Below are positions 5,087 through 19,005 of a stretch of DNA of 64,000 nucleotides, in pieces. Each line of letters begins with the position of its first letter. Position 1 is the first letter of the stretch. The stretch comes from Limnohabitans sp. Hippo3 (lineage in GTDB: Bacteria > Pseudomonadota > Gammaproteobacteria > Burkholderiales > Burkholderiaceae_C). Position numbers and translations under genes: made by a program. The notes under the pieces were generated by a model. It was not told where the DNA came from. It searched no databases and worked only from the letters and a program-made list of their open reading frames with translations. The stretch covers positions 62,001 to 126,000 of the forward strand of contig NZ_NESF01000009.1 in assembly GCF_003063665.1 (NCBI RefSeq). Reading direction: 5' to 3'.

Positions 5087-5138
5087 AGCAAACCCACAAG
5101 CGCTACAGCTCATTCCGGACTGGATCCGGGGGCATGGC

Positions 5139-5606: not shown

Positions 5607-5655
5607 GGTGTGTCTGCAGAAGGAGCGCGATCATAGCGCCTTCGGGGCGAGCGGC

Positions 5656-7170
5656 TCAGCGTTCGGCTTGCATGTCCCGTATTTGCGCTTGTGCCAGCCG
5701 CAAACGGGTGTCCACAATCGAGGCCTCGATGTGGTCGCCAGCTTGCAAGCGGTTGTTTTTGGCCCAGTCTTGTGCGGCCCGAAAGCGGTCGACCGCCCCG
5801 GTCCAATCCATCCGGGCCATTTGGGCTTCCCCTTCGGCTCGCAGTGAGGCCAGCGTCTGCCCCTGCAAGGCCAGCATGCTGGCCAGGGTGTTCCAGGCCT
5901 GCGCATCGTGTGGGGCTTGTGTGACTTGTTCACGCAGTTTTTGGGTGATGCTGGCGCGTGCCGGATGCGGTGGCAGGCGCAACAGGGCTTGTGCCGTGGC
6001 GATCAGTTCGGGTCGTGGCAATTGGGCCTGGTTCAAGCCCTCGAGCACTTGCAGTGCCAGGGCAAAACGCTCTTGCTTGGCGGCCACCTCGGCCTGCAGC
6101 AAAAGCGTCAGCCGTTTGGCTTCGGGTGTGGACGACGTCAACTGCGACAGCCGCTGCCAGCTGCGCTCAGCCGCTGCCATGTCCCGCAGCTGCAGGTGCG
6201 CCAGCGTGGCCGCATACAGGGCCCCCGCCTGGGCTTGTGGCGATGTGGCTTTGCCATCTTGGGTCCAGGCTTTCAAGGCTTCCACGCTGTTTTGCGACAT
6301 CACCCGGGCGCGAGCGGCCAGCATGGCTTGCACCATGTCACCGCTTGCACGTGGGCTGGCGCTGTTCAGCTGCAAGCGCGCCTGCATGTCGGCGATGCGT
6401 TCGGTGGTCAAAGGGTGGCTGCGCAGGTACGGAAAAGCGCCGTTGTCGTTCACGCCTGCAGCCTGCTGCAGCTTGGCAAACATGCCTACAAAGCCTTGTG
6501 GGTCATAACCCGCGTCGGCCAGGATGCCGTAGCCCACCCGATCGGCCTCACGCTCCATGTCGCGTGAATAGCTCAGTTGCGATTGGATAGCCGCCGCTTG
6601 TCCGCCCACGATCAGTCCTTGCGCGGCCTGCGGGTTCTTGCTGACTGCGATGGCGCCCAAAATCATCGAGCCGATCACCCAGGGCGTCATCTTGGCCTGT
6701 TCGTCGATCGAGCGGGCGATGTGGCGCTGGGTGACGTGGCTCAGTTCGTGCGCCAAGACCGAAGCCAGTTCGTCGTGGGAGGTGACCACCGCGATCAGGC
6801 CTAAATGCACCCCCAGATAACCACCGGGCAAGGCAAAAGCGTTCACCGAACGGTCGCGGCCGAGCAAGATGCGCCAGGCAAAGCGCTCTTGCAAATCGGT
6901 GGTCAGCTCTCCACGGGCAGCGGCCGCTTTGATCAGCGGGGCCCACAAGCGCTGGATGTATTCGTCCAGAACCGGGTCTTCAAGGTAATCCGGGTCGCGG
7001 TACAACTCCCGTGCAATCCGGTCGCCCAGTTTGCGTTCGGCCCCCAGGGAAATGCCCTCGCTGTTGCCCAAGGACGGCAAAGCCTTGGACTGGGCCCAAG
7101 CCGGCTGCAGGCCCAAAGCGCCCAGCAGCAAGAACAGCATCAGTTGGGAAGGTCGCAAGAGGTGTTTCAA
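5656..7170 (-). CDS. Periplasmic M48 metalloprotease with TPR-like tail (BepA-like)
   Basis: About 504 residues from a TTG start at 7170, preceded by an AGGA-type ribosome site. This start gives a clean signal peptide (KHLLRPSQLMLFLLLGALGL, ending before AWA-QS). The zinc-protease motif is HELSH in VLAHELSHVTQRH, and the GGYLGV and NAFALPGG segments match the M48 BepA/YfgC group, which controls outer-membrane protein and LptD quality in the periplasm. The C-terminal half is Ala/Leu/Gln-rich helical repeats consistent with TPRs. An upstream ATG at 7221 is possible but gives a less typical signal. It diverges from moaC with 91 bp between starts. A functional link with lptD and surA in this window is inference. 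Confidence 0.88.
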   Translation of the reverse strand: MKHLLRPSQLMLFLLLGALGLQPAWAQSKALPSLGNSEGISLGAERKLGDRIARELYRDPDYLEDPVLDEYIQRLWAPLIKAAAARGELTTDLQERFAWRILLGRDRSVNAFALPGGYLGVHLGLIAVVTSHDELASVLAHELSHVTQRHIARSIDEQAKMTPWVIGSMILGAIAVSKNPQAAQGLIVGGQAAAIQSQLSYSRDMEREADRVGYGILADAGYDPQGFVGMFAKLQQAAGVNDNGAFPYLRSHPLTTERIADMQARLQLNSASPRASGDMVQAMLAARARVMSQNSVEALKAWTQDGKATSPQAQAGALYAATLAHLQLRDMAAAERSWQRLSQLTSSTPEAKRLTLLLQAEVAAKQERFALALQVLEGLNQAQLPRPELIATAQALLRLPPHPARASITQKLREQVTQAPHDAQAWNTLASMLALQGQTLASLRAEGEAQMARMDWTGAVDRFRAAQDWAKNNRLQAGDHIEASIVDTRLRLAQAQIRDMQAER

Positions 7171-7261
7171 GGTGATCGATGTCCTGTGAATGGGTCGGTT
7201 GATGGCCGTATGATGCGCCATTCTTGTCAACCTTTTGTAAATGGTTTTAACCAGCACAGCC

Positions 7262-7747
7262 ATGACCCCCTCTACCGATGTCTTGACCCATTTTGACGCC
7301 CAAGGCCAAGCCCACATGGTGGACGTGGGGGGCAAATCCAGCACGCGGCGCATCGCGGTGGCTACCGGCCGCATCGAGATGCTGCCGGCCACGCTGGCAC
7401 TGATCGAGTCGGGCACCGCCAAAAAAGGCGATGTGCTGGGCATCGCCCGCATCGCCGGCATTCAGGGGGCCAAGAAAACTTCGGATTTGATCCCCTTGTG
7501 CCACCCGATTGGCCTGACCCGCGTGGCGGTCGAGTTTGAGGTCTTGAGCGCCCAATCGACCGTGGTCTGCACCGCCACCGCCGAAACCATCGGCCAGACG
7601 GGCGTCGAGATGGAAGCCCTCACGGCCGTGCAAGTGGCCTTGCTGACCATTTACGACATGTGCAAAGCCGTCGACCGCGGCATGACCATCAACGGCGTGA
7701 CCTTGCTGGAAAAGCATGGGGGTAAGTCGGGGAGCTGGACTGCGTGA
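7262..7747 (+). CDS. moaC: Cyclic pyranopterin monophosphate synthase, 3' end supplied by the island
   Basis: 161 residues, the same length as E. coli MoaC. Converts the GTP-derived intermediate to cPMP in molybdenum-cofactor synthesis. Conserved segments include [28 protein letters not shown] and [20 protein letters not shown]. The last 122 bp before the final two codons (7617-7738) are duplicated at 16610-16731, so the gene has been completed by the integrated element. The present C-terminus is SGSWTA, while the displaced chromosomal end reads SGSWVSET. The gene should remain functional because only the extreme tail changes. Confidence 0.95.
7617..7738. repeat. Left attachment repeat (attL), within moaC
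   Basis: 122-bp direct repeat partner of 16610-16731. The two differences are T7651 against C16644 and T7723 against C16716. The repeat ends one base before the sequences diverge (A7739 against G16732). The crossover must lie within this stretch; the exact core cannot be told from one sequence. Confidence 0.93.
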
Positions 7748-7794
7748 TAGTTGGCACTGACAAATCAATAGCTTAGGAGCACGGAAAACAGTCG

Positions 7795-7816
7795 TTTGTC
7801 CAAGTCCTGTCCAACT
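7795..7816 (+). promoter_or_regulatory. Paired TGTCCAA repeats near the left end, possible integrase arm sites
   Basis: TTTGTCCAA (7795-7803) and TGTCCAACT (7808-7816) lie 57 bp inside the left repeat. The same pair with the same 4-bp spacer length occurs at 16524-16545. Such short direct repeats near both ends resemble arm-type sites bound by tyrosine integrases. The second copy overlaps the leader of the integrase gene, which could give self-control. Confidence 0.5.
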
Positions 7817-7828
7817 GAGGAACAGGAA

Positions 7829-8812
7829 ATGGCTTCTTTTAGGCAACGTGGCGGCAAGTGGCAGGCGCGTGTCCTGCGTAACGGATATCCCGATCAGACC
7901 AAAACCTTTGAAACCAAGGCCGATGCAGAAAAATGGGCACGGTCGATTGAGTCCGAAATAGACAAAGGGCAGTTCGTCAACGTCAACGAGGCCCAGCGCA
8001 CAACCTTAGGTGATCTGATCAAGCGGTATCTGGCGGAGGTGACGCCCTCAATGAAGGGGGCAGCGGAAGACACGATTCGGCTCAAAGCCATCATGCGCAA
8101 ACCAATCGCACAGTGGAGCATGGCGAACCTGAGCGCAGCTCGCATTGCAGCGTATCGAGACGAGCGACTTAAAGAGGTCAGTGCGGGAACAGTTATCCGG
8201 GAACTGGCTTATCTGTCAGCCATCATCAATCACGCTCGGCGAGAATGGGGGATCAATGTGCTAAACCCTGTGCAGATGGTGCGAAAGCCTCAAAGCCCTC
8301 AAGCGCGGGCACGGGTGTTAACCGACGAGGAAGTTGAAAAGCTGTTGCTGGCACTTGAACCCGCAGGGCGCAGGAGTCACTGGACCAAACCTGCTGTGCA
8401 GCTTGCGCTGGCAACGGCAATGCGTCGAGGTGAACTGCTGTCTATTCGGTGGGAGCATGTTGACTTGCAAAATCGGACGGCGTTCCTGTCAGACACTAAA
8501 AACGGGGAGTCGCGGACAGTGCCCCTGTCCACTGCGGCGGTGCAAGTGTTGGCGGAGTTGCCAAGGCATATCAGTGGTGTTGTGATCCCGGTGAAGTTCT
8601 TCACGTTAGATGCTGCATTTAAACGAGCTCGAAAACGTGCTGGGCTTAATGATTTGCGGTTTCATGACTTGCGGCGCACCGCTATAACACGCATGGCGGA
8701 AAAGCTTCCGAACGTGATCGAGTTGGCTGCCGTCAGTGGGCACAAGAGCTTGATGGTCCTGAAGAGGTACTACCGTCCGACGGCGGCGGAGCTGGCGCAA
8801 AAACTGGGATAA
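7829..8812 (+). CDS. Tyrosine-recombinase integrase of the moaC island
   Basis: 327 residues from the ATG at 7829, preceded by GAGGAACAGGAA; the upstream extension is rejected because it reads through the TGTCCAA repeats. N-terminal arm-binding-like region (about 1-55), SAM-like core-binding domain (about 57-150), catalytic domain (165-320). Catalytic residues visible: Arg in AMRRGELLSIRW (~199), HDLRR (His279, Arg282), SGHKS (His305) and Tyr in KRYYRP (~314). It should integrate and excise the element at the moaC 3' end. Position next to attL and orientation into the element are typical. Confidence 0.95.
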   Translation: MASFRQRGGKWQARVLRNGYPDQTKTFETKADAEKWARSIESEIDKGQFVNVNEAQRTTLGDLIKRYLAEVTPSMKGAAEDTIRLKAIMRKPIAQWSMANLSAARIAAYRDERLKEVSAGTVIRELAYLSAIINHARREWGINVLNPVQMVRKPQSPQARARVLTDEEVEKLLLALEPAGRRSHWTKPAVQLALATAMRRGELLSIRWEHVDLQNRTAFLSDTKNGESRTVPLSTAAVQVLAELPRHISGVVIPVKFFTLDAAFKRARKRAGLNDLRFHDLRRTAITRMAEKLPNVIELAAVSGHKSLMVLKRYYRPTAAELAQKLG

Positions 8813-9114
8813 GCACGGAAAGGCCTTGCATTGCTTGTGCGGCTTCATTTATCATTGACATTGCCTTGCGACGATTAGCGAGCTGGACCGTGATGTGCCG
8901 CACACGGAGACCATAGCCAAAATCGTTGGTTCTTAAGGCCAATACCGACCGTACCTTCACCACTAGCGGCAAGTGGTGTCCTTAAGGTAGCTGGAGTCTT
9001 GACTGTAGCGTGTAAGAACGCTGGGTCGAGGCTCGCAAATTCTTCCCGGTAATTTCCTTCTCATACTGAGGGGGTGCTCTTGCACGTTGGCTTCCATGAA
9101 TTTTGGAGATAACG
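8813..9114. other. Non-coding 302-bp stretch upstream of the primase-helicase gene
   Basis: No credible gene. It contains a dyad CCGTG...CACGG (8888-8907), two near-identical CTTAAGG boxes (about 8931 and 8979) and a TTGACT hexamer at 8999 without a convincing -10 partner. Because it precedes the replication gene of the island, it could hold the element's replication origin or promoter; this is inference. Confidence 0.35.
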
Positions 9115-11292
9115 ATGCTTACAACCGAAAAAACCGACTCAGATGGGCAGTCTAGGAGGTGGCAGGCCCACTTCGCGAGTTACGAAAATTTGGTGGCTGG
9201 TCTGAGGGCGTTTGCTGGGAAGACGCAATTTTCAACTTGGAAATTGATTCAACAGACTGGCAAGGCCAAGCCCAGTAAGGTGCCTTTCACGCGGGATGGG
9301 AAACGTTTAACTGGCAGCTTCAGTGATCCTATGTTGCCTGCGAATCTGATGAACCTTGAGGAAGCAATCGCAGCTGTGCAGCATCGAGGGCACCATGGAG
9401 TTGGTCTTGTTTTTACGCCGAACTGCGGGATCGTTGGACTTGACCTTGATGCTTGCATTGTCGCTGGGCAGTTTATTGGAACGCCCACACAGCAGGAAGC
9501 CCTAGCTGTTTTTGAAGCGCACTCATTTGTGGAGCATTCACAGTCAGGCAACGGATTGCATGCTGTTGCACTTGGCAACGCTGCTACCAACAAACATGAC
9601 GGTGAACTGGAGTTGTTTGGGGATAAGAACTTTCTTGCTTTAACAGGCTTGAATGGGCGTGGCATGGCAAGTGAAATACCTGCTTCCACTATCGACTTAG
9701 TGAACTCGTTGGTTTGCCATTTGAAAGGTAATAAACAGCGAAATCGTGTTCTAGATGCGAACTTGAATTCGGATTTGACAGCCCACCTAAAGGGTTCGGA
9801 GGGGCAGGCGTCCATTGACACTGTTATGTCAGCGCTGCACCACCTCGACCCCGGGATGCCTCGAGATCAGTGGCTTATTATGGTTTGGGCTGTTCGGCAT
9901 GGATTGGGTGACACCGATGAAGGTGTGGACTTGGTCGACCGCTGGTCACAGGGCGATTTTTCGGCTGAGGGCAAGATGCCTGATAACTACTCAGGCCGTC
10001 CAGATGTCGAGCAGGTGTGGAATTCATACGACCCCAACCACCTAGATCGGGTTACGGTGGGCTCCTTGTTCAAGATGGCGACTGACAATGGGTGGGTCGG
10101 ACCGGGCCATACAAAGGAAGACTGCAGTGACCGTTCCCAACATCAGTCAGAGTCTGCAACTGAATGCTCGGGCGCTTTTAAGTTGACAGACGGGGATGTC
10201 CAAATCTCGCAAACGCCTCCGGCCAAGCGTAGTTATGTTTTTGCTGACACCGTGACAGCAGGTACTTACAACGTATTAGCTGGATCAGGCGGCACCCTTA
10301 AAACGATGCTCATGCTGATTTCCGCAGCTTCTATGGCAGTGGGTGATGACTTCGGTGATGTGCGAATCGCACAAGGTGCTGCAATGCTTTTTCTCGGTGA
10401 AGAGGATCGTCCCGAAATCAGCCGTCGCCTCAGCGCAGCAAGCATGCACTATGGATTTGACCCTGCTGTGGTTAGTCGACTTGTGAAAGCATTTCCTGCT
10501 GCTGGAGTTGATCTACGCCTTACCCGGGAGGTGAGCGGATCGATTGATGAAAGTGCGCTTGTACAAAATGTGATCAGTTTGGCTCAACAGCACGCACAAA
10601 CTTGTGGTTGCCCCGTACGCTTGATTGTGTTTGATCACGCGAGGTTGGTTATGGACGGCGACCCTGATGCTGCTGCAAATGTAACGCAACTGACTAGGGT
10701 TCTAACGCAGATAGCGGTCACAACAAAGGCTGCAGTCTTTCTGCTGGCACACAGCCCAAAAACAGTTTTGAGGCAGCAGGCAAAAGAGATGAGCATCGCA
10801 GACGTGGCGGGTTCCAGTGCTTTTTCGGACAATGCCCGAGCGGGTTTCATCATGTACGGGATGCGGGACGATGATGCAAAAGCACTTCAAATACCTGACG
10901 CTGAACGCAAAAAGTACATCAAGCTCGAATGCGCTAAAGCCAACTATGGCCCACAAGGCACGGAATGGTGGTTTGAGAAGGTCACGTTGGATGACTGGCA
11001 AGTACAAGTTCTCAAGCCTGTGTCTTTGATCAAGCCGATGTTCAAGCCAGGACAGGCTAAGCAGCAACTGCGTCAGCGGATTTTGGATTTGCTCACTAGT
11101 GCACCTCTATCGGCCAGAGCCATACGCGACCGTGCAGGTCAACGCAGGTCACTTGGTGCGTCAGAAAAAGAGGTGCTATCTGCGGTTACCGCCTTGCTGG
11201 AGGATGGCCGTATTGAGCGGCGTAAGCCTGTGCCAGCTGAAGTGCAGCAGTACCGGTTGCAAAAAGGGCGAGAGTTTTTATTCATCGCCTGA
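9115..11292 (+). CDS. Primase-polymerase / RepA-like helicase fusion
   Basis: 725 residues. The ATG at 9115 follows GGAG with 6-bp spacing. Domain order as I read it: an archaeo-eukaryotic primase-like N-terminus (about 20-205) with the acidic motif GIVGLDLDAC (~106-115) and HSQSGNGLHAVAL; a PriCT-2-like segment (~230-325); a RecA-fold RepA-type ATPase (~375-590) with Walker A GSGGTLKT (~390-397) and Walker B LIVFDH (~503-508); and a C-terminal winged-helix-like region (~640-725). Such fusions start replication of phages, satellites and integrative elements. It implies the island can replicate after excision. The Walker A is a variant (SGGTLKT) shared with AAA_25/RepA relatives. Exact polymerase activity is not predictable. 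Confidence 0.85.
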   Translation: MLTTEKTDSDGQSRRWQAHFASYENLVAGLRAFAGKTQFSTWKLIQQTGKAKPSKVPFTRDGKRLTGSFSDPMLPANLMNLEEAIAAVQHRGHHGVGLVFTPNCGIVGLDLDACIVAGQFIGTPTQQEALAVFEAHSFVEHSQSGNGLHAVALGNAATNKHDGELELFGDKNFLALTGLNGRGMASEIPASTIDLVNSLVCHLKGNKQRNRVLDANLNSDLTAHLKGSEGQASIDTVMSALHHLDPGMPRDQWLIMVWAVRHGLGDTDEGVDLVDRWSQGDFSAEGKMPDNYSGRPDVEQVWNSYDPNHLDRVTVGSLFKMATDNGWVGPGHTKEDCSDRSQHQSESATECSGAFKLTDGDVQISQTPPAKRSYVFADTVTAGTYNVLAGSGGTLKTMLMLISAASMAVGDDFGDVRIAQGAAMLFLGEEDRPEISRRLSAASMHYGFDPAVVSRLVKAFPAAGVDLRLTREVSGSIDESALVQNVISLAQQHAQTCGCPVRLIVFDHARLVMDGDPDAAANVTQLTRVLTQIAVTTKAAVFLLAHSPKTVLRQQAKEMSIADVAGSSAFSDNARAGFIMYGMRDDDAKALQIPDAERKKYIKLECAKANYGPQGTEWWFEKVTLDDWQVQVLKPVSLIKPMFKPGQAKQQLRQRILDLLTSAPLSARAIRDRAGQRRSLGASEKEVLSAVTALLEDGRIERRKPVPAEVQQYRLQKGREFLFIA

Positions 11293-11306
11293 CCTACCTT
11301 GAAACA

Positions 11307-11330
11307 GTGGTGTGGGGAAATCCACACCAC
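11307..11330. terminator. Hairpin after the primase-helicase gene
   Basis: Perfect 9-bp stem GTGGTGTGG/CCACACCAC with a 6-nt loop, 15 bp past the stop. No T-run follows, so it may act as a weak or factor-dependent terminator, or stabilise the mRNA. Confidence 0.4.
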
Positions 11331-11420
11331 ACCGAGCACCGGAAAAGTCTATGTAAATCAACAAGTTACGCACTTTGATGTGGCGTCGAATTTTGACGTT
11401 AAAAAACAAGGAATTCTTCA

Positions 11421-11870
11421 ATGAAATCAGCAACTTACGTGGAGTTTTACTCCCCCCCGTCCCTATCGGGACCTTTGGGTGTCCCGAAGGATAGTGACAC
11501 CACAGTAGCTGTCAAATCAAAAAAGATCTTGCCGCCACCAACCTCAGGGCATGTACCGTTGCGTGTGCAGCTTGAACAATTAAGGCGAAATACAGAACGG
11601 GGTATTCATACCAAGCAAGTTCGGTATGCAGATCGTTTGCGTGAGCAGATCAAAACATGGGCTGAATCCATGACGCCAGATCAACTCACTCGCCGGTTTT
11701 CGACAGAAGAGATCGAACGTTTAGCTGGACTTGTTGGCAAGCACGGCGGTCGTGCTGCTCACCATCACATGGCGCAGGCCCTAAGGGCTATTGGTTTTAT
11801 CTCATGCCGTGACTGGACCGTTGCCGGTCGAAACAAACGTTTTTGGAAATTTTCAGGAGAAATGAAATGA
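11421..11870 (+). CDS. Hypothetical island protein (149 aa)
   Basis: 149 residues, starting after CAAGGAATTCTTCA. The N-terminal third is Pro/Ser/Lys-rich and likely disordered. The C-terminal half (about 80-149: TPDQLTRRFSTEEIERLAGLV ... RAIGF) looks helical with a basic end (GRNKRFWKF) and could be a small DNA-binding domain. I do not recognise the family. Its stop overlaps the next start (ATGA), so the two genes form a translationally coupled pair downstream of the replication gene. A role in replication or its control is inferred only from position. Confidence 0.65.
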   Translation: MKSATYVEFYSPPSLSGPLGVPKDSDTTVAVKSKKILPPPTSGHVPLRVQLEQLRRNTERGIHTKQVRYADRLREQIKTWAESMTPDQLTRRFSTEEIERLAGLVGKHGGRAAHHHMAQALRAIGFISCRDWTVAGRNKRFWKFSGEMK

Positions 11871-12121
11871 CCGCTCCCTTGTCAACTCAAATGTGCGTTC
11901 TTATCGACGAAGCCATACAACTTGAAATCGCTTGCGATTGGTACGATGACCTTGATCTCCAGTATGGGGGGCCACCGAATAAAGACCAATTATCGACAAT
12001 GGCCTCGCGCCTTAGGACTGCATACATGAACATGGCGCTCCTCACAGGGGTAGACCCGTGCGAACAACTACCGTCAACGAAGGATCGACTGAAGCGAATA
12101 AGAAGTGCCAAGGGTGCTTAG
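11867..12121 (+). CDS. Small hypothetical island protein (84 aa)
   Basis: 84 residues, predicted mostly helical and acidic, with no motif recognised. Its ATG overlaps the previous stop (11867-11870) and is preceded by AGGAGA inside the upstream gene, supporting this start over an ATG 24 bp earlier. It is the last gene of the replication-side operon; 160 bp without a gene follow before the XRE regulator on the other strand. Confidence 0.65.
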   Translation: MTAPLSTQMCVLIDEAIQLEIACDWYDDLDLQYGGPPNKDQLSTMASRLRTAYMNMALLTGVDPCEQLPSTKDRLKRIRSAKGA

Positions 12122-12281
12122 TGATGAGCAAGCAGGGCTAATGCTCCAACGTTAGCCCGCTCAAACTCAACAAGGGTACCCTGGTGCAACTCGCTCAAAA
12201 TCAGGGTCATGCACGAACGTATTTTCATGGCATCCATCTGCCAAAGATTTTGAATCGAGTAGGTGTATGTAGGCTGCGCAG

Positions 12282-12512
12282 CTAGGCCGCGCAATCGCTA
12301 AGTAAGTCGATCAGCGTCAAGTCTAATGCGTCGGCAACCTTGCAAAGAACTGTAAGTGAGGGGTTTGCTATGGCGCGCTCCAATTGACTTGCATATGTGC
12401 GGTCAATTCCGGCACGGTCAGCTAGCTCTTCTTGCGTGATGCCCATGGCTTTGCGCTGCACCTTGATGGCGCGGGCTATGTTTTGAGCGATGTGGGCTGC
12501 TGTTGAAGACAC
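12282..12512 (-). CDS. XRE-family transcriptional regulator (controller-like, 76 aa)
   Basis: Nearly the whole 76-residue protein is one HTH_3 domain: GITQEELADRAGIDRTYASQ is the helix-turn-helix, followed by LERAIANPSL and a LIDLLSD end. Size and sequence resemble phage-type repressors and restriction-modification controller proteins. It faces away from the membrane-protein gene at 12632, sharing a 119-bp region, so it probably represses itself and that gene. No restriction-modification genes are present. Operator sequence not resolved. Confidence 0.88.
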   Translation of the reverse strand: MSSTAAHIAQNIARAIKVQRKAMGITQEELADRAGIDRTYASQLERAIANPSLTVLCKVADALDLTLIDLLSDCAA

Positions 12513-12631
12513 CCAGTGAGAGTGCTAGGATTGAGACCACTAATCCACCGACTATTTTCTACAAAAAGTATTGTTTGCGCATCACCGTGATTTGGGAGCG
12601 GTCCACTGTGTGATCAAAGGAGCAATGTTCT

Positions 12632-13117
12632 ATGAAGATCAATGAAGAGCAAATTAAGAATAAGTACAAATATTACAAAACCGATATGCTTCTATCTGTT
12701 TTGAAAGAAAATAAAAAACTTTTATCAGAAGAGGTGGCAATAATTCAGGGAATAATTAATGAGAAAAACCTCCAAATCAATTCTGACAGAGAAAATAAAG
12801 ACAGAATAATTTACGGCGTCTTAAAAGATAAAATAATAATAGCCACGTGCTGGCATATATTGATATTTGCAGTCAGCATTTTCGTCTCCTTTTTATACAG
12901 GCAGAGAGATTATCCATGGCACTGGATTGAGGCATTTGTTGCATGCCTTACAGTTCTAGTTTTTGGTCTCTTTAGTGCATTCATGATGTTGATTTTTTTC
13001 ACAGAGAGATCCAAAGGCTTGTTCTACAAAAACTACATTAGATTCTCATTGATTGGTGTCGTAGTTCTTTGGATCACCTATTGGAATCATTGCAGAATTA
13101 GTTACACATGCAATTAA
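12632..13117 (+). CDS. Membrane protein of the island with coiled-coil N-terminus
   Basis: 161 residues, strongly AT-rich and Lys/Asn/Ile-rich, unlike the surrounding GC-rich host genes. Residues 1-65 are charged and helical (coiled-coil-like), followed by three hydrophobic segments (about 72-90, 102-125, 135-152). The start follows AAAGGAG. I do not recognise the family. It is divergent from the XRE regulator. Regulator plus membrane protein pairs in islands may be toxin-like, superinfection-exclusion or defence effectors; none of these is shown by the sequence. Confidence 0.75.
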   Translation: MKINEEQIKNKYKYYKTDMLLSVLKENKKLLSEEVAIIQGIINEKNLQINSDRENKDRIIYGVLKDKIIIATCWHILIFAVSIFVSFLYRQRDYPWHWIEAFVACLTVLVFGLFSAFMMLIFFTERSKGLFYKNYIRFSLIGVVVLWITYWNHCRISYTCN

Positions 13118-13303
13118 AAACGTACTTGAACCTCTAAAGAAGTGCTCCTGATTTAAGTAAATTTCTTTTTAGAAAGGCGCTCCACTCAACCCATAGGGCC
13201 CCACGACTCTTCTGTCGTTATCGGCATTAGTCCCTATCGGTCAGGCATGTCTAGCTGTAGCCTGATTACGGTTGATCAAAGACGAAAATGAAACATCTCT
13301 ATA
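13118..13303. other. Non-coding stretch between island modules
   Basis: 186 bp with no gene I can support, mixed base composition. It separates the membrane-protein gene from the convergent HTH gene. No clear terminator hairpin with a T-run is seen. Confidence 0.3.
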
Positions 13304-13552
13304 TCAAAGAGGCCCTGAAATTGCTGGCTTGTGATACACGGCAGACCGATAGCTACGTGCGCCATAAAGGGGGTGTAGTTCAGTCTTAATCACAAAGAGT
13401 TCCCAAATACCAGCAGGCATATTGCGATCGCCTGCCTCCCATAATTGCCAAGCGCGCAGACTGCAATGGACCATCTCTGCAGATTCTTTCTGAGTGAAGC
13501 CCAGAGCCTTGCGCGTTACTTTGACTTGATCCGGTTGTGGCGATTTGAGCAT
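13304..13552 (-). CDS. Small helix-turn-helix regulator (82 aa)
   Basis: 82 residues from the ATG at 13552. Pattern DQVKVTRKALGFTQKESAEM then SLRAWQLWEAGDRNMPAGIWELF is that of a common family of phage/plasmid HTH regulators. The start is preceded, not by a ribosome-binding site, but by TATAAT only 9 bp before the ATG, suggesting a leaderless or nearly leaderless transcript. A 17-bp perfect palindrome overlaps that promoter, consistent with autorepression. It is divergent from the four-gene cargo operon and probably controls it. Confidence 0.8.
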   Translation of the reverse strand: MLKSPQPDQVKVTRKALGFTQKESAEMVHCSLRAWQLWEAGDRNMPAGIWELFVIKTELHPLYGARSYRSAVYHKPAISGPL

Positions 13553-13565
13553 ACGCGGTAAATTA

Positions 13566-13582
13566 TACGAACACTGTTCGTA
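13566..13582. promoter_or_regulatory. 17-bp perfect palindrome, likely operator
   Basis: TACGAACA-C-TGTTCGTA, perfectly symmetric. It lies in the divergent region between the HTH gene and the zinc-ribbon gene and overlaps the last bases upstream of TATAAT on the minus strand. Best read as the operator of the 82-aa HTH regulator. It is not the CTGT-N8-ACAG LexA box of betaproteobacteria. Confidence 0.65.
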
Positions 13583-13718
13583 AAGTAGCGGAGCAACCAG
13601 TATGGTGAAGTCATAGGTGACCTCGATTACCAAGGTTGCCTAGACGGAAACCCCTTGTTTTGCCATTCATTCCGAGAGCCGGAAATTTGGCTGATTGCAC
13701 ACTACAAAAGGAAAATTT

Positions 13719-14822
13719 ATGCTGCCAGGCCCGTCCTACGTCTATCAATGCGAGTCATGTGAAGGTCTCTTTGAACGCCGGAGCATTTCATCTGGAAACA
13801 CCAGTCGGGCCAAGTTCCGATCTGATGGACAAATGAGTGCTCCAATGTTGCCAACAACGCCGCTACTGGCAGCTTGTCCTCATTGCAAATCTTCAATTTT
13901 CTGGCCCACTGCAAAAGAAGTTGATTCGTACGAAACGTATGACATGACGGGTTTTTTCGACGTGGGCCTGATAAGCCCTGAGAATCTGGCAATTAGGGCC
14001 GAGAAGAAAACGAAAAAGCTCAAGTACAAAGATGTGGCCAGGTATGAGCAGGCTTCTCCCGAGCAGATTGTTGAGGTCATTCAAGGAGGTCGTTTTGACA
14101 GTTCGTACGAATTGCCATTGCGCTTGCTGTTTTGGCAGCGTTGCAACGATGAACGCTTAGAGGTTGGACGTGTTGGATTGAAGTTCGATGAGCGGGAGAA
14201 CTTGCAAAAATTGTTGCTGTTAATCGATCAGAACACTGATTCGCATCTGTTGCTTAAGGCTGAAATTTTCAGACAGCTTGAGCAGTTCGATGAAGCTCGC
14301 TTCATGTTGGATCATGACTTTGATGAAGAGATGGCCCCCCGTGCTGAGCAATTAATGCTCGCCATTGAGAGGAAAGACACTTTGCCTTTCCAGTTCGTCG
14401 GACGCGATGATGAATATGACTATGAGACAGCTTGGCTAGCTCGAAGGTATGCGCCTGAAGACCCCACAAAGTTCAATTTTGCGGAACTGACTCCACCAGT
14501 TTTTAAGATCAGCAACCGTGATTGGTGGGTCAAGGTACTTGGTATGTTGCGCCATAACTGGGCGCTGATCGAGAGAAATGATGACGACACTGCAACCGTT
14601 TACTTTTTCCAAGATCAAGGTGGCAAAGACCGTCCGGCCATCATCGATTCACTCAGCTTCGCGGATGTCAGGGAAGCCAGGCAGGGGCTGAAAGAAAATG
14701 GGTTTGAATTATTGAAGACTTATCCGGGGCCATGGATGGGTTGCGAACCCAAGGGCTTCATCTATGATAACCGTGGCGCTGGTAATTTTGTTTATTCACA
14801 ACGTGGATTTTGGGTCAAATAA
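13719..14822 (+). CDS. Zinc-ribbon protein of unknown function, first gene of the cargo operon
   Basis: 367 residues from the ATG at 13719 (AAAGGAAAATTT upstream). The N-terminus carries two CxxC knuckles (Cys11/14 and Cys53/56) that should bind one zinc ion. A region around 90-125 is basic and helical; the middle (about 125-225) is Leu/Glu-rich helices (LRLLFWQRCNDER, LLLIDQNTDSHLLLKAEIFRQLEQFDEA) that look TPR-like. The C-terminal 130 residues (from about 240: TPPVFKISNRDWWVKVLGMLRHNWALIE) form a separate mixed domain ending in Trp/Gly-rich strands. No family recognised; no signal peptide. Gene 2 of the operon begins 12 bp downstream. Confidence 0.8.
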   Translation: MLPGPSYVYQCESCEGLFERRSISSGNTSRAKFRSDGQMSAPMLPTTPLLAACPHCKSSIFWPTAKEVDSYETYDMTGFFDVGLISPENLAIRAEKKTKKLKYKDVARYEQASPEQIVEVIQGGRFDSSYELPLRLLFWQRCNDERLEVGRVGLKFDERENLQKLLLLIDQNTDSHLLLKAEIFRQLEQFDEARFMLDHDFDEEMAPRAEQLMLAIERKDTLPFQFVGRDDEYDYETAWLARRYAPEDPTKFNFAELTPPVFKISNRDWWVKVLGMLRHNWALIERNDDDTATVYFFQDQGGKDRPAIIDSLSFADVREARQGLKENGFELLKTYPGPWMGCEPKGFIYDNRGAGNFVYSQRGFWVK

Positions 14823-14834
14823 AAGGAGCTGATC

Positions 14835-15152
14835 ATGCGAGTTGGTAGTGCAATTTTTGCAGGGATAGTTGGAGCCCTTGTTGGATTTTTCGCTTCCCTA
14901 ATTGGTTCTGGCGTGGCTACAGGTGTCCTTGTTGGTGCTATTGCAGGGGCAATAATTGGATTTTTATATTCAATCCCACCTCGAGATTTTGATGCTCCAA
15001 GTATTGCGATTGAGTCACTGTCGCCTGCAGGATTTGTGGCTGGTATTGCTGCGTCCGCTGCATGTGGTACGGGTTTATTTTGGGGGGCATTTTTTGCTGC
15101 TATGGGATGGATTTTTGGAATAATTATTATTGCAATTATTCAAAATTTATAA
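14835..15152 (+). CDS. Small glycine-rich membrane protein
   Basis: 105 residues after the ribosome site AAAGGAG. Two long Gly/Ala-rich hydrophobic stretches (about 5-45 and 66-103) with GxxxG patterns, e.g. GALVGFFASLIGSGVATGVL and AGAIIG, resembling glycine-zipper membrane proteins that pack tightly or oligomerise. A short polar loop (PPRDFDAPSIAIES) separates them. Family not recognised. Second gene of the cargo operon. Glycine-zipper proteins in defence and toxin systems can form pores, but no activity can be assigned here. Confidence 0.75.
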   Translation: MRVGSAIFAGIVGALVGFFASLIGSGVATGVLVGAIAGAIIGFLYSIPPRDFDAPSIAIESLSPAGFVAGIAASAACGTGLFWGAFFAAMGWIFGIIIIAIIQNL

Positions 15153-15166
15153 TTAAAGGAAAATAA

Positions 15167-15196
15167 ATGATTGATTTTTCTAAATTTTTTAATTAA
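15167..15196 (+). CDS. Possible 9-codon open reading frame between cargo genes
   Basis: ATG followed by nine codons (MIDFSKFFN) with its own AAAGGA ribosome site 6 bp upstream; its stop overlaps the AAAGGA of the next gene. The two sites share AATTAAAGGA. It may be a coupling or leader peptide, or a remnant of duplication of the spacer. Weak evidence. Confidence 0.25.
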   Translation: MIDFSKFFN

Positions 15197-15205
15197 AGGA
15201 TTAAG

Positions 15206-15595
15206 ATGTCGATGTTCGGTTTTTTAAAAGAATGGGGTTCTGGAGCTGCGCGAATAAATAACTCCGATAGAATTATTGAAAATCTTGTCGGGGTTAACCC
15301 AAAGTCATATCATCCCGATATATACAAGGGGATATTGCAAGAGGCTCTCAATTATGAAAGTTCGGAGATTAGTGATGAGAAGCTCAATGCTGTGGAATTT
15401 TCTGCTGTCAGGATGGGTTTGTTTGCGTTGATCGCGGAAAATGCAGAAGATTACGAGGTGGTGAAAATATATGCAAAGGCCCTTGGAAGGCTTTCCAGAA
15501 CTTGTTCGAATGAAATCAGTTCAAAAGTCCGTGTAAAAATATTGAAATTTACAGATGATTTGAGTTTTGGAAATTATTTTTTCGATGAAAATTAA
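15206..15595 (+). CDS. Hypothetical soluble protein of the cargo operon
   Basis: 129 residues preceded by AAAGGATTAAG. AT-rich, acidic and predicted helical, with no signal peptide or membrane segment. No motif recognised. Third main gene of the operon; its last 11 bp overlap the start of the next gene. Size and acidity could suit an immunity or partner protein for the membrane genes on either side, but this is speculation. Confidence 0.7.
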   Translation: MSMFGFLKEWGSGAARINNSDRIIENLVGVNPKSYHPDIYKGILQEALNYESSEISDEKLNAVEFSAVRMGLFALIAENAEDYEVVKIYAKALGRLSRTCSNEISSKVRVKILKFTDDLSFGNYFFDEN

Positions 15596-15845
15596 TAAAT
15601 TACAAAAGAAAATCATCGCCATTGCCGCTTTGATTATTACCTTGATGCTAATATTTCCGCCTTACAGAATCTATGGGTTTGGAGCTAGTAGTCAAGCCGT
15701 ACTCGAAACAGGCTATTCATTAATATTTGAACTCCCGATGAGAGCATCTATTGATGGAGTGACATTAATTGTTCAGTGGCTAGGAGTATGTTTAGTCGGA
15801 GGGCTAATTTACAAAGTTTTTGATGGTGATGAAAGCAGTAGGTGA
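15585..15845 (+). CDS. Small membrane protein, last gene of the cargo operon
   Basis: 86 residues. The ATG at 15585 lies within the end of the previous gene (overlap to 15595), implying translational coupling. N-terminal Lys-rich segment (KINKLQKK) followed by a hydrophobic helix (about 10-30, IIAIAALIITLMLIFPP) and a second one (about 60-76, VTLIVQWLGVCLVGGLIY); short charged end. Possibly a two-pass inner-membrane protein. Family unknown. Confidence 0.65.
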   Translation: MKINKLQKKIIAIAALIITLMLIFPPYRIYGFGASSQAVLETGYSLIFELPMRASIDGVTLIVQWLGVCLVGGLIYKVFDGDESSR

Positions 15846-15899
15846 CATACACACGTCTTGAAAAATTGCTCACTCACTGAGAGGCACTGGTCCAATGTG

Positions 15900-15940
15900 C
15901 CCCCACCCCCCCACCCCCGTGGGGGGCCTCCCCGGGGGGT
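15900..15940 (-). other. C/G-run tract with G-quadruplex potential upstream of the RadC-like gene
   Basis: Plus strand is a chain of C-runs (4, 7 and 5 Cs separated by single As) then G-runs. On the minus strand this gives G5-T-G7-T-G4/5, a strong G-quadruplex pattern; the tract can also fold as a hairpin (CCCCC...GGGGG). It lies about 40 bp before the RadC-like start. Confidence 0.55.
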
Positions 15941-15978
15941 AGCAAGCCAGCCATATGTACAACCTCAAAGGAGTACGA

Positions 15979-16425
15979 ATGGCCAATTACGCGGAGCACC
16001 CCATCATCCGGCAAGCCCTGGAATTGCTTGCTTGTGAAATTCAACATACCGACACACTTCAGTCACCAGATGCCGTCAAAGACTATTTGAGATTGAAGTT
16101 GGGCGACCGACCTCATGAAGTCTTCGCCGTTGTGTTTATGGACTCACAAAACCGAGTCATTGCATACGAAGAGCTTTTCAGGGGTACTTTGACTCAAACC
16201 TCTGTCTATCCGAGAGAGGTAGTGCTGGAGTCGTTGAAGCGGAACGCTGCCGCAGTCATCTTGTGTCACAACCATCCAAGTGGTTCACCTCAACCATCAA
16301 GGGCAGATGAAACACTCACACTGACTCTGAAAAGTGCGCTTGCGTTGGTGGATGTGCGTGTACTTGATCACATGATCGTCACACGTTCTAAGGTCCTGAG
16401 CTTTGCAGAGGAGGGTTTAATCTGA
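15979..16425 (+). CDS. RadC-like JAB/MPN-domain protein of the island
   Basis: 148 residues, starting at the ATG after AAAGGAG. The whole protein is the RadC/JAB1-MPN domain: [17 protein letters not shown] contains the HxHPSG-S-x2-D metal-site motif. Full-length chromosomal RadC has an extra N-terminal helix-hairpin-helix part that is absent here, as in many short RadC copies in genomic islands. Despite the name, a repair role is doubtful; the fold is a metal-dependent peptidase/isopeptidase-like domain. It sits at the right end of the island, 184 bp before the attachment repeat. Confidence 0.88.
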
Positions 16426-16523
16426 ACGTACGAACCGATTTTGAGCTTTATAGCCTCACTTGGCCTATACCGCATCATAAATGCGTGCGGCAACATCGAG
16501 GTAAACTGAAGTGGGCAAGAATT

Positions 16524-16545
16524 TTTGTCCAAATTTTGTCCAACT
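16524..16545 (+). promoter_or_regulatory. Paired TGTCCAA repeats near the right end, possible integrase arm sites
   Basis: TTTGTCCAA (16524-16532) and TGTCCAACT (16537-16545), in the same orientation and spacing as 7795-7816; 18 of 22 positions are shared, with all differences in the 4-bp spacer. It is 64 bp inside the right repeat, mirroring the 56 bp on the left. Confidence 0.5.
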
Positions 16546-16608
16546 AAACACACAGGATCAGGCTAAACGATGGCATGCCGTGTGCTGTAACTTGTTGATT
16601 TGTATGAC

Positions 16609-16746
16609 TCCCTCACGGCCGTGCAAGTGGCCTTGCTGACCATCTACGACATGTGCAAAGCCGTCGACCGCGGCATGACCATCAACGGCGTGACCTTGCT
16701 GGAAAAGCATGGGGGCAAGTCGGGGAGCTGGGTCAGCGAAACCTGA
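16609..16746 (+). pseudogene. moaC: Displaced 3' end of moaC
   Basis: Reading frame continuous with moaC codons: [14 protein letters not shown] ... [11 protein letters not shown] and a TGA at 16744-16746. It has no start or promoter and is the stranded tail left by integration. Joining 7262-7616 to 16610-16746 would recreate a 163-residue MoaC. Confidence 0.92.
16610..16731. repeat. Right attachment repeat (attR)
   Basis: Partner of 7617-7738 (120 of 122 identical). Beyond it the sequence continues into the displaced native end of moaC. Confidence 0.93.
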
Positions 16747-16805
16747 AGCCTTACTTGGCTGTTCCCCCCTGTGTCGTCATGGCCTGACTTGATCGAGTCT
16801 GGGGA

Positions 16806-16838
16806 AATGGATCCTCGGGTCAAGCCCGAGGATGACAA
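16806..16838. repeat. Intergenic palindrome (REP-like)
   Basis: TCCTCGGG-TCAAG-CCCGAGGA (16812-16832) in the context ATGGATCC...ATGACA. The same framing occurs at 4461-4490 with a different stem. Lies between the moaC remnant and uraA, which converge. Confidence 0.6.
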
Positions 16839-16874
16839 ATCACAAGCGCCTGAGATGACCACAGGGCGTGAATC

Positions 16875-18170
16875 TCAGCGTGAAGAGCGGCCGCGAGAGA
16901 GCAAGGCGTACAGCAGGATCGCCCCAAAGGTGGCGGTACCGATGCCGCCCAGCGCAAACGGGCCGAACTTGAGGGTGAAGTCCCCTGTGCCCAGCACCAG
17001 TGTGATGGCGGCGACCAGCAGGTTTTTGTTGTCTGAAAAATCCACCTTGTTGTCCACCCAGATCTTGGCACCGGCCACAGCGATCAGGCCGAACACCACG
17101 ATGGACACGCCGCCCATCACGGGCAGCGGAATGGCTTGGATGAGTGCACCGAATTTGGGCGAGAAGCCCAGCAGGACGGCCATCAGCGCTGCGACCAGAA
17201 AGATCGCGGTGGAGTAGATGCGTGTGGCGGCCATCACGCCGATGTTTTCGGCATAGGTCGTCACGCCAGTGCCACCGGATGCGCCGCTGACCATCGTGGC
17301 CACGCCGTCGCCGATGAAGGCACGGCCCATGTAAGCGTCCAGGTTTTTGCCCGTCATGGCGGTCACCGCTTTGATGTGGCCCAGGTTTTCGGCCACCAAG
17401 ATGATGGCCACAGGCGCGATCAGCAGCATGGCGCGGCCGTCGAACACCGGTGCGGCGAACGTGGGCAGGCCGAACCAGGCGGCGTTCGCCACACCCGAGA
17501 GGTCCAGTGGTTTGCCCAGGCCCAGGCCATTGGTCAGGACGGCGTAGATGATGCTGGCAAGAATCAATCCCACCAGCATCAGCAGGCGCTGCACCATGCC
17601 GCGTGAATACACCGCAACCAGGCCCACGCTGACAAAGGTGACCAGCTGCATCCAGGCATCAAAGTCGCCCGCAGCCATGTTCTTGATCGGTATGCCTGCC
17701 AGATTCAGGCCGATCACGGCCACCACCGCACCAGTGACCACTGGGGGCATCATCCGCTCGATCCAGCCGGTGCCAACCGCCTGCACGACCAGGCCGATCA
17801 GTGTGTAGAGCGCGCCACAGGCGATGATGCCGCCCAACGCTACGCCCATGTTGGCGTTTGGCCCTTTACCTGCGTACGCGGTGGCCGCAATGACCACGCC
17901 GATGAAGGCAAAGCTCGAACCCAAGTAGCTGGGCACCTTGCCGCCGGTGATGACAAAGAAGATCAGCGTGCCGATGCCGCTCATCAAAATGGCGATGTTG
18001 GGGTCAAAGCCCATCAGGATGGGGGCCAGTACGGTGGCACCGAACATGGCAATGACGTGTTGCACGCCCATGGCGGCGGTGTGCGGCCAAGGCAGGCGCT
18101 CGTCGGGGCCGATGGTGCCGCCTTGCAGCAGCACATCGGGGCTTTGCGTTTTCCATTGAAACATCGACAT
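16875..18170 (-). CDS. uraA: Uracil/nucleobase permease (NCS2 family)
   Basis: 431 residues with 12 or more hydrophobic segments. Conserved NCS2 features: QHVIAMFGATVLAPIL in the first helix, the substrate-site loop VAENLGHIKAVTAMTG, and GASGGTGVTTYAENIGVMAATR. Proton-linked uptake of uracil through the inner membrane. GGAGATTGGT precedes the ATG. Divergent from upp with 132 bp between starts; together they make a uracil salvage pair. RutG-type permeases are close relatives, but the upp neighbour favours UraA. Confidence 0.92.
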   Translation of the reverse strand: MSMFQWKTQSPDVLLQGGTIGPDERLPWPHTAAMGVQHVIAMFGATVLAPILMGFDPNIAILMSGIGTLIFFVITGGKVPSYLGSSFAFIGVVIAATAYAGKGPNANMGVALGGIIACGALYTLIGLVVQAVGTGWIERMMPPVVTGAVVAVIGLNLAGIPIKNMAAGDFDAWMQLVTFVSVGLVAVYSRGMVQRLLMLVGLILASIIYAVLTNGLGLGKPLDLSGVANAAWFGLPTFAAPVFDGRAMLLIAPVAIILVAENLGHIKAVTAMTGKNLDAYMGRAFIGDGVATMVSGASGGTGVTTYAENIGVMAATRIYSTAIFLVAALMAVLLGFSPKFGALIQAIPLPVMGGVSIVVFGLIAVAGAKIWVDNKVDFSDNKNLLVAAITLVLGTGDFTLKFGPFALGGIGTATFGAILLYALLSRGRSSR

Positions 18171-18302
18171 ACCAATCTCCCTGAGTGAAATGTGGGGGCC
18201 ATGCTAACGCAGTTTGGCGCCTCATTCCGATGCCTTGGTGACCCGGTGCTGCAGGCACAATCGTGCCTGTCTGTTTCCCATATTGCGAAGAAGGAACCCG
18301 GA

Positions 18303-18956
18303 ATGACCGCCATCAACCCCGCCGAACGCGGCCAAGTGCACCTGATTGATCACCCGCTGGTGCAGCACAAGCTCACGCTCATGCGCAAGAAGGACGCCAG
18401 CACCAGCAGCTTTCGACGCTTGCTCAATGAATTGGCCAGTCTGATGATTTACGAAGTTTGCCGCGACATGCCCTTGCAGGACGTGCAGATCGAAACCCCA
18501 CTGGAGACCATGACCGGACGCGTGATCGACGGCAAGAAGCTGGTGTTCGCCAGCATCCTGCGCGCTGGCAACGGCATTCTGGACGGGGTGTTGTCGGTGG
18601 TGCCTGGCGCACGTGTCGGTCACATCGGCTTGTACCGAGACCCGAAAACGCTGCAGGCGGTGGAGTACTACTTCAAAATGCCCAAGTCCATGAGCGAGCG
18701 TGATGTGGTCGTGGTCGACCCCATGCTGGCCACTGGCAATTCGGCAGCTGCCGCGATTGCGCGGCTCAAGCAGTGTCAGCCGCGTTCAATCAAGTTCCTG
18801 TGCCTGTTGACCTGTCCCGAGGGCATCAAGACCTTGCACCGCGAGCACCCCGATGTGCCGATTTACACCGCCGCCATCGACCGCGAACTCAATGACCACG
18901 GCTACATCTTGCCCGGCTTGGGTGATGCGGGGGACCGTATTTTCGGGACGCAGTGA
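18303..18956 (+). CDS. upp: Uracil phosphoribosyltransferase
   Basis: 217 residues from the ATG at 18303 (AAGAAGGAACCCGG upstream). Makes UMP from uracil and PRPP. The PRPP-binding motif is [18 protein letters not shown]; the uracil-binding end [16 protein letters not shown] is intact. Divergent from the uracil permease, consistent with coordinated uracil use. The longer in-frame upstream extension to 18192 runs into the uraA promoter and is not needed. Confidence 0.96.
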
Positions 18957-18968
18957 GCGCGTCGACCT

Positions 18969-18997
18969 GCGGGCATCTGTTCATGCCAGGTGCCCGC
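18969..18997. terminator. Hairpin between convergent upp and O-glycosyl ligase genes
   Basis: GCGGGCATCTG/CAGGTGCCCGC (one non-Watson-Crick position) with a 7-nt loop, just after upp. No T-run on either side, so termination is plausible but not certain. Confidence 0.4.
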
Positions 18998-19005
18998 TGA
19001 GCGCT

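Follow-up and report, generated by a model that had tools for sequence, protein, structure and literature searches.

Genomic islands in protein-coding targets are common as a class: among the islands called by TIGER/Islander, 43.4% lie in such targets and 33.8% in tRNA or tmRNA genes (PMC12424338). In the elements that integrate at icd, identity blocks of up to ~250 bp are reported in the available text of the source (PMC10111431). As for moaC, this gene (Rmet_4428) appears as a boundary gene in the table describing CMGI-A, an 87-kb island of Cupriavidus metallidurans (PMC7019866). In the texts available, our literature searches, including those combining moaC with integrase, found no published statement of moaC as an attachment site. 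The original prediction for the locus described here had called moaC an uncommon site and tRNA and tmRNA genes the usual ones; the first part is in line with these searches, but protein-coding targets are common, as the proportions above show.

The locus lies in a 64-kb stretch of DNA (the whole stretch analysed, hereafter the window). From the repeat, the empty sites in relatives, the integrase clade, the crossover bounds in relatives and the matched boxes at the two ends, all of them sequence comparisons, we conclude with a probability of about 0.92 that it contains an integrative genomic island, whose tyrosine integrase would recombine a copy of the moaC 3' end in attP with the same stretch of chromosomal moaC (attB). 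moaC would thus join the chromosomal targets of islands, and with it comes a set of small elements (about 2-12 kb) from freshwater bacteria whose ends are mapped and whose core is predicted.

Repeat, boundaries and gene content

The repeat search identified a 122-nt direct repeat (98% identical, with 2 mismatches in the alignment) whose copies start 8993 nt apart, delimiting an island of ~8,993 bp with the tyrosine integrase gene directly inside the left copy (Table 1). The repeat is not a product of chance, because no other direct repeat reported within 5000-19500 exceeds 28 nt. The G+C content is 0.39-0.56 within the island versus 0.58-0.65 beyond it. The left moaC matches all 136/136 positions of Pfam MoaC (192.8 bits), and the second MoaC match in the genome, at the stranded end, covers positions 100-136 only. 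The left moaC ends in SGSW-TA-stop; between the common SGSW and the stop there are two codons in this copy and four in the native end. The repeat with its two mismatches, the integrase inside the left copy and the readable native tail of moaC were all part of the original prediction and were recovered here by repeat search and alignment, by Pfam, and by the sequence together with the partial MoaC match, respectively. No tRNA or tmRNA gene was found within the window, and such a target was rejected for this island.

Table 1. Positions of the island features in the window.
Feature	Position	Strand	Basis
moaC, chimeric; host codons to about 7655-7665, then a predicted element-supplied 3' end	7262..7747	+	ORF, Pfam MoaC, crossover bounds from relatives
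attL identity block, 122 bp	7617..7738	+	repeat search, alignment
Putative crossover motif GACATGTGCAA in attL	7655..7665	+	14 attL/attR pairs
IHF-like site AATCAATAGCTTA	7763..7775	+	sequence; relatives compared
Left doubled box TGTCCAA-N4-TGTCCAA, putative integrase arm sites	7797..7814	+	sequence pattern
Tyrosine integrase, 327 aa from ATG 7829; ORF open from TTG 7796	7829..8812	+	Phage_integrase E 7e-29
Replication protein, primase/helicase-like (PriCT_2 + AAA_25)	9103..11292	+	Pfam; PHROGs primase/helicase
Protein of no matched family, 149 aa; one weak PADLOC match, E 0.016	11421..11870	+	Pfam, PHROGs, NCBIfam negative
Protein of no matched family, 92 aa	11843..12121	+	Pfam, PHROGs, PADLOC negative
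Small Cro/CI-type HTH regulator	12282..12512	-	HTH_3 E 4e-16
Protein of no matched family, 161 aa	12632..13117	+	Pfam, PHROGs, PADLOC, NCBIfam negative
HTH protein; VC1465 Xer-activation-factor family match below cutoff (37 bits, cutoff 70)	13304..13633	-	
Cargo protein, 375 aa, weak zinc-ribbon match	13695..14822	+	profile search
Small protein of no matched family, 105 aa	14835..15152	+	PADLOC, Pfam, NCBIfam negative
Small protein of no matched family, 129 aa	15206..15595	+	Pfam, PHROGs, PADLOC, NCBIfam negative
Small protein of no matched family, 92 aa	15567..15845	+	Pfam, NCBIfam negative, scanned from 15597
RadC-like JAB protein	15955..16425	+	E 3e-46
Right doubled box TGTCCAA-N4-TGTCCAA	16526..16543	+	sequence pattern
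IHF-like site AATCAACAAGTTA	16588..16600	-	sequence; relatives compared
Stranded native 3' end of moaC	16609..16746	+	sequence; MoaC match there
attR identity block, 122 bp	16610..16731	+	repeat search, alignment
Putative crossover motif GACATGTGCAA in attR	16648..16658	+	14 attL/attR pairs

Ten of the 12 listed window ORFs were scanned with Pfam and PHROGs and the remaining two with Pfam, and NCBIfam returned only integrase-superfamily, RadC and weak HTH matches on the island ORFs. No excisionase, relaxase, packaging or structural gene was recognised in the ORFs scanned with these three collections. As the mark of a prophage, a structural PHROG was looked for and not found among the 10 of 12 ORFs scanned; as that of an integrative mobilisable element, a relaxase was not found in the island ORFs; and of the genes expected in a Gram-negative PICI, the integrase and the primase/helicase are present and no AlpA family was matched in the ORFs scanned. 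The 375-aa cargo protein has a second copy elsewhere in the genome (88% identical). Three further candidates were rejected: known defence cargo (from ten ORFs, PADLOC returned HTH-type matches, a single weak match to PDC-M02B and weak JAB matches), plasmid origin (megablast of the island DNA against plasmid records gave no match) and close viral relatives (no IMG/VR match to peptide patterns of the integrase). A scan of 7600-9150 yielded 0 promoters and 0 terminators, which says little because shuffled sequences give just 0.7 and 1.8, respectively.

A PICI- or P4-like phage satellite, packaged by a helper phage, is a possible but doubtful reading: the integrase, primase/helicase module and HTH regulators would suit it, as would the size of the elements and an attP layout like that of helper-embedded PICIs, as far as the available text describes it (PMC10111431), but Pfam and PHROGs recognised neither AlpA nor a capsid, terminase or other packaging family in the ORFs scanned, IMG/VR gave no match as stated above, and every best phage-record match of the integrase is below 60% identity. 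Slightly less probable still is a mobilisable element moved by conjugation, to which the Mob_Pre relaxase (E 2e-24) carried by the family member L011 points; the scans of the 12 ORFs described above gave no relaxase match, and the megablast result for plasmid records also argues against it.

Empty sites and the family of moaC elements

In the genus relatives L060 and L062, moaC is followed about 100 bp on by the convergent uraA, and each genome contains one MoaC match; therefore, empty sites exist without a second moaC fragment. The original prediction had proposed a search for this uninterrupted moaC-uraA locus, and neither of the two findings that it named as contrary to an island, i.e. a second fragment in island-free relatives and the lack of any empty site, was encountered in these genomes. 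It had also proposed a search for other elements with such an integrase at moaC, and many relatives contain one, with a close integrase and other cargo. Among the 23 loci with an integrase at least 50% identical by tblastn (including the window's own locus), moaC lies directly upstream in 22, all except L013. Integrases with at least 56% tblastn identity lie directly downstream of moaC in all examined loci but one, and those adjoining moaC occur in the window's family and two other families; in L161, L163 and L190, which belong to three other family codes, moaC is also located directly upstream of the integrase gene. Several of the nearest non-moaC integrases adjoin tRNA genes (Val, Pro and others).

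The integrase tree, built from 52 sequences, has a branch (support 98/91.9) that separates the 23 moaC rows together with L013 from the rest, and a clade of the 23 moaC rows that excludes L013 is rejected (p-AU 0.011). As judged from this tree, one integrase clade shares one target, moaC, with L013 (at pntB) as the one exception, and the island appears to belong to a family whose integrases form a moaC-specific clade and whose cargo is exchangeable. Where both ends of an element were located, its length is about 2.4-12.2 kb. An ordinary duplication of the moaC end, with the integrase beside it by accident, is very improbable: repeats beside genes can arise in this way and the two copies are nearly identical, but relatives have this arrangement too, with a closely related integrase at that position and interiors that differ, empty sites exist, and the exact doubled box described below is found solely at the two ends.

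Several relatives are decayed, with truncated, broken or missing integrases (L084, L061, L090, L086 and L153). This, together with the absence of a recognised excisionase among the island ORFs (Pfam, PHROGs and NCBIfam), would suit an immobile remnant, i.e. an element whose integrase once acted and which now moves no more. We consider this unlikely for the window, where the integrase gene is open, its product aligns end to end with close relatives and keeps segments resembling the catalytic motifs, and the boxes and att blocks are intact at both ends. Moreover, only 2 of the 122 bases differ between the att copies, which suggests a recent event or exchange between them.

Crossover site, flanking boxes and a probable change of target

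The comparison of 14 attL/attR pairs suggests that the crossover occurs in or adjoining GACATGTGCAA, which codes for Asp-Met-Cys-Lys. Twelve of the 14 pairs are identical across this motif and all 14 across GACATGTG; mismatches start directly 5' of the motif in L005, L010 and L011, and directly 3' of it in L007. The motif differs by one base between the element ends in L084 and L046, and decay or a wrong partner may explain these differences: the integrase of L084 is truncated, and the moaC fragment of L046 is just 57% like MoaC. In the window, about 70 bp of identical sequence follow the first of the two mismatches; the placement of the motif rests on the relatives, because the window's own mismatches bound its crossover only loosely. 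With 65 unoccupied genus sites as the reference, the stretch 3' of the motif in L090 shows a best identity of 0.99 in attR versus 0.89 in attL, i.e. the attR tail is native-like and the attL tail less so, as predicted; this comparison is clear for L090 alone, slight for the window (0.95 vs 0.92) and uninformative for most others, and the part 5' of the motif in L090 is unusable because its right copy begins just 24 bp before the motif.

A crossover at or beside GACATGTGCAA implies that the element would supply the final ~30 codons of moaC in place of the native ones, and that the host would retain an intact, chimeric moaC, with the native end displaced and stranded ~9 kb away. Should the island excise, its replication protein may copy the circular form, and transfer would probably rely on something external to the element. 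Each insertion would overwrite the last ~30 codons of an enzyme of the molybdenum cofactor pathway, so that part of the host MoaC would be element-derived. As a candidate tool, the integrase might also serve to insert DNA at moaC and leave the gene intact.

In the 2.99-Mb genome, the two copies at the island ends are the only exact matches to the doubled box (reversed control, 0). A loose pattern detected the right box in 14/14 elements and the left box in 13/14 (not in L015), and in all 13 elements with both boxes, the two ends have the same sixth box base (A or C). None of the 70 genus genomes not counted as occupied has a box in the examined stretch. G430 shows no box, which, like the missing left box of L015, counts against the proposed layout. 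The boxes lie 106-118 bp upstream and 146 bp downstream of the crossover in 9/14 elements each. The right-box distances in 12 elements (96, 106-107, 118, 129 and 141-142) recur about every 11.5 bp, with a concentration of 0.95 on 7 distinct values that was reached by 0 of 3000 random draws; L015 (-60) and L084 (a repeated -118) were excluded from the test, the elements are related to each other, and L013 (about -183) falls outside the spacing, and we regard the periodicity as a hint only. The doubled boxes, one on each side of the crossover, are probably bound by the N-terminal arm domain of the integrase. The IHF-like sites AATCAATAGCTTA and AATCAACAAGTTA are located between the boxes and the core and may bend the DNA.

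L013 is nested in the moaC integrase clade, and its site is the 3' end of pntB: it is bounded by a 67-bp perfect repeat that codes for the C-terminal end of PntB (E 9e-12), and boxes are present on either side. The pntB core reads GACATGGTCAAAGC, similar to the moaC core, and the L163 host has GACATGGTGAAAGC in its moaC. We somewhat favour the view that this integrase lineage uses the DNA for Asp-Met-x-Lys-Ala of MoaC and that a descendant jumped to the near-matching 3' core of pntB (Asp-Met-Val-Lys-Ala), with the L163 moaC sequence bridging the two, because the short core would govern the choice of target and the arm boxes would be retained along with the integrase. The switch probably ran from moaC to pntB. 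If true, this case would be a concrete example of an integrase changing its target, with the core replaced and the arm sites kept.

Comparison with known elements

Like islands in tRNA genes (Islander, PMC4383910), as presented in the available text, the moaC island has a regenerated target and a displaced fragment at its ends, but its target is a protein gene. CMGI-A is far larger than the moaC island, and the available passages of its source do not term moaC an attachment site (PMC7019866). The icd islands and prophages, in the accessible part of their description (PMC10111431), also combine a tyrosine integrase, a protein-gene target and a long attP replacement end that keeps the gene functional. 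Their target gene and hosts are different, the core here being placed on the Asp-Met-Cys-Lys codons of MoaC.

The same source, in the sections available, describes helper-embedded and fis PICIs with a likewise doubled motif, two co-oriented copies of which flank the crossover (PMC10111431). That motif differs in sequence from the box of the moaC elements and lies 81 bp upstream and 132 bp downstream, compared with 106-118 and 146 bp (9/14 each) here. Unlike PICIs, the moaC island contains no recognised AlpA or capsid gene, and helper-embedded PICIs disrupt late genes without a replacement end, whereas the moaC elements would restore their gene. The PICI integrases form a clade with subclades following the target, as in the moaC family. 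In the dusA-integrase family, as far as its source text was available (PMC4482086), one integrase family is likewise tied to one housekeeping gene in many bacteria; integration there is at the 5' end of the gene, in contrast to the 3' end in moaC.

Structure and gene content of the moaC island

The 122-bp repeat of the moaC end that had been noted at both ends of the island was confirmed (98% identity, 2 mismatches; start-to-start distance of 8993 in a repeat search of the window), and the left-most island gene is a tyrosine integrase located just inside the left copy, as proposed. The left moaC covers the whole of the Pfam MoaC family, and the right fragment, described as the stranded native tail, covers positions 100-136 only. 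After the common SGSW, the left copy contains two codons until the stop and the native end four. The G+C content is 0.39-0.56 within the island versus 0.58-0.65 outside, and no tRNA gene was found within the 64-kb window. An integrative island with the 3' end of moaC as its attachment site is the best explanation (probability of about 0.92), and this central claim of the original prediction was borne out by empty sites in relatives and by an integrase clade tied to moaC, both described below.

The integrase (Pfam Phage_integrase, E 7e-29; PHROG integrase match) is followed by a primase/helicase-like protein (Pfam PriCT_2 and AAA_25), and the remaining genes encode two HTH proteins, several unknown proteins, and, at the right end, a RadC-like protein. 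Pfam and PHROGs scans of 10 of the 12 listed ORFs gave no match to structural, packaging, or relaxase families. Because the integrase gene lies 82 bp after moaC in the same direction, it may be transcribed from the moaC promoter. One HTH protein matched VC1465, a family of Xer recombination activation factors, below the cutoff (37 bits; cutoff, 70). The same genome contains a second copy of island cargo genes (locus L204), in which a 1476-bp stretch with a 375-aa gene (90.6% identical to the island) adjoins a 560-bp stretch with radC (91%) in different surroundings; no moaC-clade integrase was found in the 19.9 kb examined there.

Coordinates of the island, its ends, and related loci (positions in the window unless a locus is named)
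Feature	Coordinates	Remark
Island	7617-16731	about 9 kb
attL	7617-7738	left moaC-end repeat
attR	16610-16731	right moaC-end repeat
HTH protein	13304-13633	sub-cutoff VC1465 match
Second cargo copy	L204:8359-10612	G000 (own genome) contig C1, about 443,358-445,611
L086 element	L086:2017-3946	about 1.7 kb
L088 element	L088:1-2200	moaC ends 2 kb apart
L046 element	L046:5965-18129	about 12 kb

Empty sites, occupancy, and the integrase clade

The uninterrupted moaC-uraA locus anticipated in relatives was found in L060 and L062, where uraA is convergent with moaC across a gap of about 100 bp and the arrangement is that of the window minus the island; each of these genomes has one MoaC match, and neither carries the second moaC fragment. 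A genus search identified MoaC in 84 of 90 genomes. The region downstream of moaC was surveyed in all 84 (nine genomes counted as unoccupied were covered for 1.5 kb only, and in 11 further genomes a contig end lies within 1.5 kb), and 14 were occupied by a clade integrase, its remnant, or doubled boxes: G000, G401, G402, G409, G413, G430, G442, G451, G454, G459, G460, G464, G469, and G473. G087, G444, and G453, each with a doubtful second fragment, are not included in this count. The box pattern was found in 13 of the 14 occupied genomes and was absent from the remaining 70. Some elements lack an integrase, e.g. L086, which retains a moaC fragment and a doubled box at either end and in which only the first 19 integrase codons precede a stop; it can be read as either a remnant or a non-autonomous element. 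In L088, two moaC ends surround a broken integrase start, and this locus is another decayed element of the family.

Among the 23 loci (window included) whose integrases are at least 50% identical by tblastn, moaC lies directly upstream in 22, the exception being L013. L026, L031-L033, and L041 reach 50% over other alignments, yet 44-46% by tblastn, and none is at moaC. Wider sampling added three loci at moaC from three other family codes, namely L161 (58%), L190 (56%), and L163 (49%); L164, L165, L169, L175, and L191-L193 (50-53%; L164 up to 55%) are away from it, and the integrases of L165, L169, L192, and L193 adjoin tRNA genes. In the careful tree, a chosen subset of 52 integrases (outside which stand L015 and L028, both fragments; L031, L032, L034, L036, L039, L041, and L044, seven rows at 44-46% identity; L179-L193; most genus loci; and L043, removed for its long branch), 23 moaC rows and L013 form one side of a branch with support of 98/91.9. 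The 23 moaC rows without L013 are rejected as a clade (p-AU 0.011).

Elements of this clade have the integrase and the ends in common, and the remainder is exchanged. The window and L007 have a replication gene of the PriCT_2/AAA_25 type; this gene is VapE-like in L005 and L010, D5-like in L047, AAA_25 alone in L093, and DUF5906 in L052. For the large L048 protein, there was no match to any Pfam family. The L011 element carries a Mob_Pre relaxase. In L046, 2.5 kb of sequence interrupts the helicase match, possibly as a nested insertion.

Probable crossover motif and the element at pntB

The crossover was placed on the premise that attL passes from host to element sequence and attR from element to host, so that it should be flanked by positions at which the two copies differ. 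The two ends are identical over GACATGTGCAA in 12 of 14 pairs and over GACATGTG in all 14, and mismatches start immediately before the motif in L005, L010, and L011 and immediately after it in L007. A single C/T difference between the ends falls within the motif in L084, whose integrase is truncated, and in L046, whose right moaC fragment matches poorly (57% like MoaC). In L090, native-like identity after the motif is 0.99 in attR versus 0.89 in attL, in agreement with the prediction for a crossover at the motif; sequence ahead of the motif is of no use for this comparison in L090, whose right copy begins just 24 bp before it. The motif codes for Asp-Met-Cys-Lys, residues located at the MoaC active site.

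The most interesting part of the finding is a probable switch to pntB. The L013 integrase, found on one contig of a Polynucleobacter MAG that starts 228 bp before the integrase match, is nested in the moaC clade, but the gene at whose 3' end it stands is pntB (match to Pfam PNTB, E 9e-12). Its element is about 7.6 kb long, is bounded by a 67-bp perfect repeat, and has boxes at both its left and right ends. Two adjacent bases separate the pntB core, GACATGGTCAAAGC, from the core usual in moaC, GACATGTGCAAAGC; a single base separates it from the moaC core (GACATGGTGAAAGC) next to L163, the tree neighbour of L013. On the evidence of this one contig, the simplest account would be a jump between genes with a common core, although moaC may instead have been gained as a target twice.

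Doubled boxes and comparison with known systems

A doubled box, TGTCC(A or C)A-N4-TGTCC(A or C)A or something close to it, is present at both ends and points the same way at each; these boxes are putative arm sites of the integrase. By a loose pattern, the right box was found in 14/14 elements and the left in 13/14, the one not found being that of L015, whose integrase is broken. The sixth base matches between ends in all 13 elements with both boxes, i.e. A in the window, L005, L007, L052, and L084 and C in L010, L011, L046, L047, L048, L051, L090, and L093; the L206 box is TGCTCCA at both ends. The exact doubled box occurs twice in the own genome, both times at the island ends (reversed control, 0), and a one-mismatch search of window shuffles gave a mean of 0.09, with two reached in 1 of 100. 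In 9 of 14 elements, the distance from the left box to the motif centre is 146 bp, and IHF-like sites are located between the boxes and the core. By eye, related integrases with other targets have differently sequenced doubled boxes ahead of int.

Protein genes are common as a class of island target, accounting for 43.4% of 1,757,053 mapped islands (PMC12424338). No statement of moaC as an attachment site was found in the literature searched, and mapped-island databases may list it. The nearest trace in print is a table for the 87-kb island CMGI-A of Cupriavidus metallidurans, in which moaC is tabulated at the edge as a boundary gene (PMC7019866). The layout of the boxes is the same as that of a doubled motif described for helper-embedded PICIs, for which binding by integrase arm domains is among the readings offered in that description (PMC10111431).
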